A stretch of DNA of 41,286 nt from an uncultured Bacilli bacterium (lineage in GTDB: Bacteria > Bacillota_I > Bacilli_A > RF39 > UBA660): positions 1 to 41,286 of the forward strand of contig CANQKO010000009.1 of NCBI GenBank assembly GCA_947624505.1, in the 5' to 3' direction. Each line of letters begins with the position of its first letter. Within the stretch, counting starts at the first letter, position 1. The position numbers were made by a program, and so were the translations under genes. Shown one piece after another: positions 40,339 to 41,286 of the stretch. The notes beneath the pieces were generated by a model. That model had not been told where the DNA came from, did no database searches, and saw only the letters and a list, made by a program, of their open reading frames with translations.

Positions 40339-40554
40339 ATGGCAGAATTTTATCGTAAGAAAAAGAAAATATGTCAAATGTGTGCTGGTAAAAGCGTTGA
40401 TTATAAAGATGTAATGATTATTAATAAATATATTAATGAAAAAGGTAAAATATTACCTCGTCGTATTACTGGAGCTTGTGCTAAACATCAAAGACATATT
40501 GCTGAACAAGTTAAATATGCAAGATTTATGGCTTTAATACCATATGTTAAATAA
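40339..40554 (+). CDS. rpsR: 30S ribosomal protein S18
   Basis: A 71-residue protein with YRKKKKICQMCAGKSVDYKD, a CxxC-containing N-terminus, and ILPRRITGACAKHQRHIAEQ. Cys and His suggest the zinc-binding form. Ribosome-binding site AAAGGAGG. Confidence 0.96.
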   Translation: MAEFYRKKKKICQMCAGKSVDYKDVMIINKYINEKGKILPRRITGACAKHQRHIAEQVKYARFMALIPYVK

Positions 40555-40559
40555 TAACT

Positions 40560-40579
40560 AACCAAATGGTTGGTTTTTT
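40560..40579 (+). terminator. Terminator of rpsF-ssb-rpsR
   Basis: AACCAA/TTGGTT (40560-40565 with 40570-40575) followed by T to 40579. Confidence 0.7.
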
Positions 40580-40590
40580 AATTTGCATTA

Positions 40591-40619
40591 TTGTATAAAA
40601 CAAAATAATATGCTAAAAT
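40591..40619 (+). promoter_or_regulatory. Promoter of the short antisense RNA
   Basis: TTGTAT (40591-40596), 17-base spacer, TAAAAT (40614-40619) with TGC ahead of the -10. Predicted start of transcription about 40626. Confidence 0.65.
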
Positions 40620-40625
40620 TATAAA

Positions 40626-40686
40626 TAGGAAGACGCAAATAAGCGTTACCTAATGAGTGTGCTAACCCAACGGGTTAGCTATTTTT
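40626..40686 (+). ncRNA. Putative antisense antitoxin RNA (about 60 nt)
   Basis: From the predicted start to the T run at 40682-40686 the RNA has two parts: a 5' hairpin (ACGC-AAATAA-GCGT) and a strong terminator stem (40661-40668 with 40672-40679, GCTAACCC/GGGTTAGC, three-base loop). It is fully complementary to the last seven codons of the minus-strand peptide gene and its 3' region, so it would pair with that mRNA. Confidence 0.6.
40661..40686 (+). terminator. Terminator of the antisense RNA
   Basis: Perfect 8-bp GC-rich stem, loop AAC, then TATTTTTA. On the minus strand no T run follows the same stem, so it should terminate only the plus-strand RNA efficiently. The stem encodes the last codons of the minus-strand peptide. 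Confidence 0.8.
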
Positions 40687-40763
40687 ATGACTAATATTAA
40701 CAATGTTAAGACTAACATAAAAACAATAAATAATTGTATCGTTTCACGGTATTTCTTATTCAT
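40662..40763 (-). CDS. Putative type I toxin, 33-residue membrane peptide
   Basis: On the minus strand, ATG (complement of 40761-40763) opens 33 codons ending TAG. The peptide has a charged start MNKKYRETIQ, one hydrophobic helix at about residues 11-26 (LFIVFMLVLTLLILVI) and a short end KIANPLG. This is the layout of small pore-forming type I toxins. The Shine-Dalgarno region is GGTGGGTGGGTGCC just upstream, preceded by a TGAC-TTCG-GTCA hairpin. A promoter at 40848-40876 drives it. I do not recognise it as Fst, TxpA, BsrG or another named family. Confidence 0.6.
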   Translation of the reverse strand: MNKKYRETIQLFIVFMLVLTLLILVIKIANPLG

Positions 40764-40847
40764 TGGCACCCACCCACCTGACCGAAGTCAAAAAGACTTT
40801 AAATAAAAAAGTTTTCGGTAACGCTTATTTACATCTTCCTAGGCTTT

Positions 40848-40876
40848 ATTTAAACAATTTATTTTGTTTTTGTAAA
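40848..40876 (-). promoter_or_regulatory. Promoter of the putative toxin mRNA
   Basis: On the minus strand TTTACA (complement of 40871-40876) and TTAAAT (complement of 40848-40853) are 17 bases apart. The spacer shares AAAACAAAATAA with the antisense promoter. The start of transcription would be near 40841, giving a structured ~78-base leader. Confidence 0.6.
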
Positions 40877-40973
40877 TAGTTTTTTTGGTGATTTTTTAAG
40901 AAATTTCTAATGTTTATGCTAATTCTCTAGAGATTTGGTAAGCATTTATCTTTATCTTTTAAATAATTGATGC

Positions 40974-40979
40974 TATAAT
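40974..40979 (+). promoter_or_regulatory. Extended -10 for the right-edge gene
   Basis: TGCTATAAT, with TATAAT at 40974-40979, precedes the ATG at 41009 by about 30 bases; the -35 (TTTATC) is weak. Confidence 0.5.
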
Positions 40980-41008
40980 AGTAAATACTTTTTCAGGGGA
41001 GTTTATTT

Positions 41009-41286
41009 ATGAAGATAATAGATTATATTAAAAATTTATTTAAACATAAAGAAATATATACTAATGGAGTATTAGTACGTCCATCTGATATAATTAAAAT
41101 ACCAAAAAGAAAAGAATTTAATAATGATGAGTTAGTAGACTCTTATAAAGATGAGTATAATAGTATTATATCAACTATGAAAGATTATGATCCATTAATA
41201 CTTGAAGCTGAAGAACTTAATAGTAATATAATAATGACATCAAAATTACTTTTTAATATTGCAATAAAAGAAGAGTATAAAAATGA
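41009..41286 (+). CDS. Hypothetical protein, 5' part only
   Basis: The first 92 codons of a gene cut by the right edge. ATG follows AGGGGAG by seven bases. The visible part is soluble and charged (MKIIDYIKNLFKHKE, VRPSDIIKIPKRKEFNNDEL, LILEAEELNSN). No family recognised. Confidence 0.6.
   Translation, partial: MKIIDYIKNLFKHKEIYTNGVLVRPSDIIKIPKRKEFNNDELVDSYKDEYNSIISTMKDYDPLILEAEELNSNIIMTSKLLFNIAIKEEYKN

Follow-up and report, generated by a model that had tools for sequence, protein, structure and literature searches.

Organization of the Cassette

The window, by which we mean the whole stretch of 41,286 nucleotides analysed here, contains a compact cassette in which a toxin-like open reading frame (ORF) on the minus strand faces a predicted antisense gene on the plus strand. 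The ORF (40662..40763, minus strand) encodes 33 amino acids, MNKKYRETIQLFIVFMLVLTLLILVIKIANPLG, ends with a stop codon at 40662-40664, and shows a coding signal in its homologues. It is preceded, 5' of the ATG, by a G-rich ribosome binding site (RBS), AGGTGGGTGGGTG (40767..40779, minus strand), conserved in the homologous copies. The toxin promoter (40848..40876, minus strand), conserved in the alignment, consists of the -35 element TTTACA (40876-40871), a spacer of 17 nt, and the -10 element TTAAAT (40853-40848), which TG precedes. The toxin RNA would start at 40840 and open with a 5' arm, AGGAAGATGTAAATAAGCGTTACC, at 40817..40840 (minus strand).

On the plus strand, the antisense promoter (40591..40619), also conserved in the copies, comprises the -35 element TTGTAT (40591-40596), 17 nt, and an extended -10 element, TGCTAAAAT, with the hexamer TAAAAT at 40614-40619. 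The 5' arm of the antisense RNA, AGGAAGACGCAAATAAGCGTTACC, occupies 40627..40650 (plus strand, predicted +1 at 40627), and a toxin transcript reading through would carry the complement of this sequence as its 3' arm. A linker (40651..40660, plus strand), hypervariable among paralogous copies, leads from the antisense arm to the terminator; when the full-length toxin RNA is folded in prediction, the complement of the linker pairs with the RBS. The intrinsic terminator, GCTAACCCAACGGGTTAGC TATTTTTA (40661..40687, plus strand), overlaps the end of the toxin ORF and has no U-run on the toxin strand; a generic scan placed it at 40661-40679 plus a U-run, with its stem overlapping the last codons of the ORF. 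Promoter and terminator together delimit a predicted antisense (antitoxin) RNA of ~62 nt (40627..40688, plus strand), which is retained in orphan copies that have no toxin.

The two promoters are in phase (-35, 17 nt, -10, 7 nt, and +1 at the A of AGGAAG), and because their spacers are alike too, the inverted similarity of the two arms reaches 57 nt at 79%. The promoter calls rest on conservation among copies; a generic sigma-70 scan found promoters no commoner than in shuffled sequence, and the toxin promoter was missing from its list.

A palindrome, GCTAATTCTCTAGAGATTTGGTAAGC (40918..40943, no strand assigned), lies 5' of the toxin promoter and precedes nearly every copy. Its core, AAATCTCTAGAGATTT, is near-invariant, while its outer arms show covariation from one genome to another (TTACC/GGTAA, ATGCG/CGCAT, CCC/GGG); it may be an operator, a terminator, or a recombination site. 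The palindrome also occurs at G000 C3:71932 and C6:39625, where no cassette is recognisable. One protein family recurs beside the cassettes, its members being oriented divergently to many of them (41009-41286 in the window; L002, L004, L013, L033, L059, L011, L032, and L045); in two copies from the window's own genome, the protein is 457 residues long and starts with MKIIDYIKNLFKHKEI. The fragment present in the window has no match in Pfam or NCBIfam.

Distribution, Decay, and Variation of the Cassettes

About 40 such cassettes are found in seven genomes of one genus, several of them in the window's own genome, each with a membrane peptide of 28-33 amino acids encoded opposite an antisense RNA of ~62 nt. 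Named records of the related genomes are metagenome bins of uncultured Bacilli, probably from the rabbit gut, as the isolate name 'Lapin' suggests. A toxin profile search reached 10 of the 38 genomes of the genus at an E value of 0.01, of which the weakest is doubtful, and beyond the genus it found almost nothing in either the order or the class. Searching with a pattern of the antisense 5' arm gave 56 places in the seven genomes, and the reversed control gave none.

The aligned peptides, 28-33 residues long, share a single hydrophobic stretch. Among 27 homologous ORFs, the synonymous fraction is 0.59, against an expected 0.22, and this excess identifies the ORF as coding and under purifying selection. 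No match to the peptide was found in Pfam, NCBIfam, PHROGs, or PDB, and no known RNA family was matched in Rfam at gathering scores; a match to tracrRNA (E 1.5) was dismissed as chance. There was no phage match for the cassette, and carriage on plasmids was rejected, since the sole plasmid match covered 36 bases of AT-rich promoter sequence. With what appears to be an antisense gene on the opposite strand, composed of a conserved promoter, a 5' hairpin, a linker, and an intrinsic terminator, the cassette looks like a new family of type I toxin-antitoxin systems, absent from Pfam, NCBIfam, PHROGs, and Rfam. At L065 1705-2405 (G000 C2), two cassettes stand in direct tandem, 396 bp apart; they are nearly identical from the toxin promoter to the end of the ORF, with differences in the linker region as well as ahead of that promoter.

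In 13 places the antisense gene is kept although the toxin has suffered a frameshift or a truncation or has disappeared (G000 C1:82311 and C6:56147; G003 C69, C70, and C82; G006 C2:8948, with a weak terminator, and C6:25122; G029 C11:817 and C24:11617; G031 C9:21631, C15:17254, and C28:9106; G060 C21:13199), and the reverse was never seen. The search with the antisense pattern is biased toward such relics, but in a toxin search able to find toxin-only loci, every intact toxin gene was likewise accompanied by its antisense. In G029 C4 and G003 C36, the ORF is retained and the toxin promoter and leader are lost. Such an asymmetry of loss would be expected if the peptide were harmful in the absence of the RNA. 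Orphan antisense genes without a toxin are seen at L040 (G006 C2), L057 (G029 C24), L143, L147, L126, L135, and L053, some of these genes standing in tandem with an intact cassette; it is possible that they are stand-alone antitoxins or regulators of other copies.

The most variable region of the antisense RNA is the 10-base linker, which is distinct within genomes in 30 of 31 cases, with one repeated linker among the 31. Within genomes, the p-distance is 0.64 for the linker and 0.60 for the terminator loop, whereas the ORF (0.23) and the 3' arm (0.08) vary less. The window copy (C9) is identical to the C1 copy of the same genome in the palindrome, the promoter, the 5' arm, the leader, and the part of the ORF that precedes the stem of the terminator, but the two differ at 7 of 19 sites in the loop, the right stem, and the linker. 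Two copies located beside the same gene in different genomes (C14 of the window's own genome and G034_C60) share their linker exactly. These observations fit a role of the hypervariable linker as an address that would keep paralogous antitoxins apart. Strict module specificity has been demonstrated for the IsoA RNAs (PMC6733600).

Pairing of the Two Ends of the Toxin mRNA

The sequence-only reading had proposed that a toxin transcript reaching 40627 would carry both arms and close on itself, a proposal that depends on the presence of the second arm in homologous loci and on the toxin RNA extending that far. Every cassette with a full toxin gene carries the second arm. Between the stop codon and this arm, no intrinsic terminator is predicted in any of the 31 copies, nor does any T-run longer than three occur from the ORF end to the 3' arm in these copies. 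Terminators further downstream were looked for by a generic scan only, which gave none on the minus strand in 40400-41286. Since the U-run is absent from the toxin strand in 31 of 31 copies, we infer that the toxin RNA would read through the antisense terminator into the second arm.

When folded at full length, the window transcript indeed closes end to end, with 24 consecutive pairs at a probability of 0.99. The duplex between its 5' end and 3' region has an energy of -39.9 kcal/mol, compared with -11.3 ± 2.5 kcal/mol for dinucleotide shuffles (z = -11), so that the pairing in the window is not a matter of chance. Fold-back of the 5' arm onto the 3' arm is predicted in all 31 cassettes with probabilities of 0.80-0.99, burying the ends in 20-24 bp.

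Comparison of the arms across homologous loci, which had been suggested as a check, revealed that at 14 consensus pairs in 31 cassettes all 433 of 433 cells are paired, whereas sliding the partner by 1-3 columns, as a control, leaves 37-56% of the cells paired. Double-change cells number 12, against 3.3 ± 1.5 in shuffles (0/500), and the covariation score is 0.215, against 0.168 ± 0.008 (0/500). Examples of compensatory change include AGGAA/TTCCT to AGGAG/CTCCT and GTTACC/GGTAAC to GTTGCC/GGCAAC, as well as GCTATC with GGTAGC. The cognate arm duplex reaches -28.2, compared with -23.4 for permuted arms (0/20,000).

Differences between the toxin arm and the antisense arm run in one direction. 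In 40 copies, 128 transitions preserve a wobble pair (toxin T for C, 73; G for A, 55) and 10 break it (A for G, 9; C for T, 1), raw counts that overstate independence because many copies share ancestry. When each transition is counted once per genome and column, the numbers are 45 versus 5 (binomial p 4e-9, with shared ancestry ignored), and once per column and type they are 18 versus 3. As a control, the untranscribed promoter halves 5' of the start sites yielded 32 preserving and 33 breaking transitions.

Pairing of the ends extends to deep relatives, G033, G023, and G022, plus G108 from another genus, in which it is formed by unrelated arms with z scores of -4.3 to -6.0 (5' end versus 3' region, against dinucleotide shuffles). 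Each deep lineage pairs better with its own partner than with most partners of the other lineages.

The likeness of the arms might also be explained by descent, if a small mobile element carried them as its terminal inverted repeats, or if a promoter and its leader had been duplicated, without any function of the arms in the RNA. The cassettes are indeed multicopy and located at many intergenic sites, the similarity of the arms extends into the promoters, and tandem as well as partial copies are present. However, neither descent nor gene conversion predicts a one-way wobble bias limited to the transcribed part, a bias that already contradicts descent as the sole explanation, and descent does not predict compensatory changes or pairing by unrelated sequences in deep relatives. 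We thus regard this explanation as very unlikely, although the arms may share an origin by inverted duplication. The covariation and the one-way wobble bias indicate instead that the end pairing of the toxin mRNA is under selection at the RNA level, to judge from the sequence comparisons.

Shared 5' Ends and the 5' Hairpin

Both predicted RNAs open with nearly the same 24 bases, as had been noticed earlier, 40627-40650 (plus strand) and 40817-40840 (minus strand) being identical at 22 of 24 positions. The two differences, ACGC in the antisense RNA versus ATGT in the toxin RNA, convert two C-G pairs of a 5' hairpin of 4-5 bp into U-G pairs. While this swap is as originally described, the accompanying claim that the hairpin is kept applies weakly to the toxin RNA of the window (-2.2 kcal/mol, compared with -5.9 kcal/mol for the antisense RNA) and fails for most homologous toxin RNAs. 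The antisense hairpin folds in 40 of 40 copies with a mean energy of -5.4 kcal/mol, whereas the hairpin of the toxin arm has a mean of -1.7 kcal/mol, is weak or absent in most copies, and has an energy of 0.0 in several.

The idea that a need of both RNAs for the same hairpin maintains the shared 5' sequence agrees with the weak hairpin retained in the window copy, but the homologues, with the disparity in mean energies just given, contradict it and make it extremely improbable. Preservation of the hairpin is not the selected trait, since most homologous toxin RNAs have lost it; the hairpin is conserved in the antitoxin RNA only, and the toxin arm has drifted from it yet stayed complementary to the 3' arm.

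The toxin 5' arm of the window also contains a start-stop, ATGTAA (40829-40834, minus strand), behind an SD-like AGGA; some relatives have ATGTAG and others have none. This mini-ORF was rejected, being unconserved in relatives.

Access to the Ribosome Binding Site

The earlier suggestion of fold-back inhibition of the kind known from hok mRNAs is partly supported, in that the mRNA is predicted to pair its ends and the pairing is selected, but inhibition by closure alone does not follow, and the likeness to hok was drawn too readily. Deletion of the 3' arm leaves the predicted energy for opening the RBS unchanged (13.4 versus 13.5 kcal/mol), and direct blocking of the ribosome site by closure was discarded for this reason. 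A direct effect of the antisense RNA in freeing or blocking the RBS was rejected as well, the mean opening energy after removal of the antisense region being 12.9 versus 13.5.

The linker has a more pronounced effect. On the toxin strand it is G-poor (18 of 310 bases), the ribosome site being G-rich, and its replacement by A lowers the opening energy of the RBS in 31 of 31 copies, from a mean of 13.5 to 10.5 kcal/mol. The probability of linker-RBS pairing is 0.46 in the full-length RNA versus 0.23 in the absence of the 3' arm (higher in 26 of 31), and it is 0.29 with shuffled linkers, the real linker being higher in 24 of 31 copies, which are non-independent.

The nascent RNA behaves differently in these predictions, with the 5' arm pairing with the RBS and the start codon at a mean of 0.60, compared with 0.30 for shuffled arms (higher in 28 of 31 copies, again non-independent), and with this pairing falling to 0.005 in the full-length RNA. 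The window copy is an exception, with a nascent 5' arm-RBS pairing of 0.01. As far as prediction goes, a nascent cover of the RBS by the 5' arm followed by closure would resemble the metastable-then-closed pathway of AapA3.

These results also bear on the notion that end pairing serves the stability of the mRNA or the formation of its 3' end, as a shield from 5' and 3' exonucleases, rather than the control of translation. In its favor, removal of the 3' arm leaves RBS access as before, both extreme ends are buried, and in Fst RNA I an upstream helix conceals the extreme 5' end (PMC7472228). The doubling of linker-RBS pairing by the 3' arm, as well as the alternative partner predicted for the 5' arm at the RBS, speak against such a role, and we hold the stability role to be a possible but less likely one.

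Predicted Antisense Binding and the Proposed Mechanism

It had also been suggested that the antisense RNA could compete for the 3' arm, and co-folding gave energies consistent with such competition, in which the 5' arm costs ~23 kcal/mol of binding: the antisense RNA binds the closed window mRNA with -39.8 kcal/mol and the mRNA lacking its 5' arm with -63.3 kcal/mol. The energy is -30.7 kcal/mol when the 3' arm is trimmed and -21.1 kcal/mol when the linker is trimmed as well. The observation that the antisense arm outbinds the toxin arm in 40 of 40 copies was set aside as evidence, since perfect complementarity guarantees that outcome. In these models, end pairing competes with the antitoxin, and an mRNA trimmed at its 3' end would mostly be out of the antitoxin's reach.

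In activation of the Hok or AapA type, the closed mRNA would be inert and hidden from the antisense RNA, slow trimming at the 3' end would open translation, and the antisense RNA would guard the trimmed form only. The closed fold does hide the RBS and the mostly paired linker, end pairing weakens antisense binding from about -63 to -40 kcal/mol, and AapA3, with an anti-SD near its 3' end, works in this manner (PMC6733600). In this cassette, however, the target of the antisense RNA is the 3' end itself, so its removal by trimming would let the active mRNA largely escape the antitoxin (about -31 kcal/mol after loss of the 3' arm and -21 after loss of the linker too), and the predicted RBS opening is no lower once the 3' arm is gone. 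Activation by trimming is unlikely on these grounds, and decay of the duplex, as in BsrG and TxpA, is preferred because trimming would release the mRNA.

We consider it fairly probable that this is a chromosomal type I cassette with an end-closed toxin mRNA silenced by its linker, in which an antisense RNA addressed by the same linker displaces the 5' arm and the duplex is destroyed. Convergent, in-phase promoters located in the inverted arms would produce the toxin mRNA and the antisense RNA of ~62 nt, with nearly the same first 24 bases. The toxin RNA would pass the antisense terminator and run through the second arm, allowing its 5' end to pair with its 3' end. On the nascent chain, the 5' arm itself would tend to cover the ribosome site, a prediction with moderate support, and in the closed mRNA the linker beside the 3' arm is predicted, with similarly moderate support, to hold the mRNA silent by pairing with the G-rich ribosome site. 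The antisense RNA, a perfect complement of the 3' end, would recognise its own mRNA through the copy-specific linker and displace the toxin 5' arm, the hold of which is weakened by G-U pairs. The resulting long duplex would then be destroyed, with RNase III as the likeliest agent by analogy with the Bacillus systems with 3' overlap, and loss of the antisense RNA would presumably lead to production of the toxin.

One may tentatively go further and view the toxin 5' end as a degenerate copy of the antitoxin that acts as an antisense in cis, covering the nascent RBS and then closing the mRNA, with G-U wobbles that let the linker-guided antitoxin win. Such an arrangement could have originated by an inverted duplication of the promoter and leader.

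Comparison with Known Systems

Work on how toxin mRNAs fold has covered a few type I systems, and most of it relied on mutating a single locus. Here, about 40 natural variants and their deep relatives are available, in which covariation shows that end pairing is selected and is separable from the 5' hairpin, and the same set presents a short hypervariable linker behaving as an address between paralogous toxin-antitoxin pairs in one cell. Two questions can be put to direct test with these cassettes: what prevents cross-talk among paralogous antisense RNAs, and by what route an antitoxin reaches a closed mRNA when its target is the closing arm.

The Fst par system (RNA I/RNA II of pAD1) is similar in its convergent promoters, its toxin of ~33 amino acids, and its short antisense RNA, as well as in having repeats crossed by both RNAs and a sequestered SD (PMC7472228). 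Its repeats are direct, however, making the RNAs complementary there, whereas the inverted repeats of the cassette give the RNAs shared 5' ends; the Fst terminator is bidirectional, whereas in the cassette only the antisense strand of the terminator bears a U-run. The PXXXG motif of the Fst/Ldr toxins is absent from cassette peptide alignments A1 and A3, which have no Pfam match.

In BsrG/SR4 and TxpA/RatA of Bacillus subtilis, as is predicted for the cassette, the antisense RNA overlaps the toxin 3' end and the RBS is sequestered, and decay of the SR4/bsrG duplex begins with RNase III; in the parts of that account consulted, shared 5' arms and pairing of the toxin mRNA ends are not described for these systems (PMC6562991).

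With hok/Sok the cassette shares a predicted antisense antitoxin and the pairing of the mRNA ends, which keeps hok mRNA inert (Franch and Gerdes 1996, as cited in PMC4147584); 5'-3' end pairing is present in the cassette mRNA, as judged from prediction and covariation. Hok requires translation of mok, and Sok targets the 5' leader (PMC4147584), whereas the antisense RNA of the cassette covers the 3' end and there is no conserved leader frame. Neither homology to the Hok protein, nor a mok frame, nor an antisense RNA to the 5' leader was found, and there was no family match.

AapA/IsoA of Helicobacter pylori has a small hydrophobic peptide and several modules per genome with module-specific antitoxins, and its full-length mRNA is closed 5' to 3'; an anti-SD lies close to the 3' end, and until closure the SD is covered by metastable structures at the 5' end (PMC6733600). 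No homology to its peptide or RNA was found in Pfam, PDB, or Rfam, the cassette peptide being without a sequence match to any library entry. The cassette differs further in that its antisense RNA overlaps the toxin 3' end, so that trimming removes part of the target, and in that its closing arms are an inverted repeat held in common with the antitoxin's own 5' end. Hok and AapA are nevertheless the nearest parallels to the end pairing of the cassette; the main logical difference from both is that trimming would release the mRNA from an antitoxin whose target is the toxin 3' end, and the end-paired toxin mRNA of this family is a new variant of such mRNAs.
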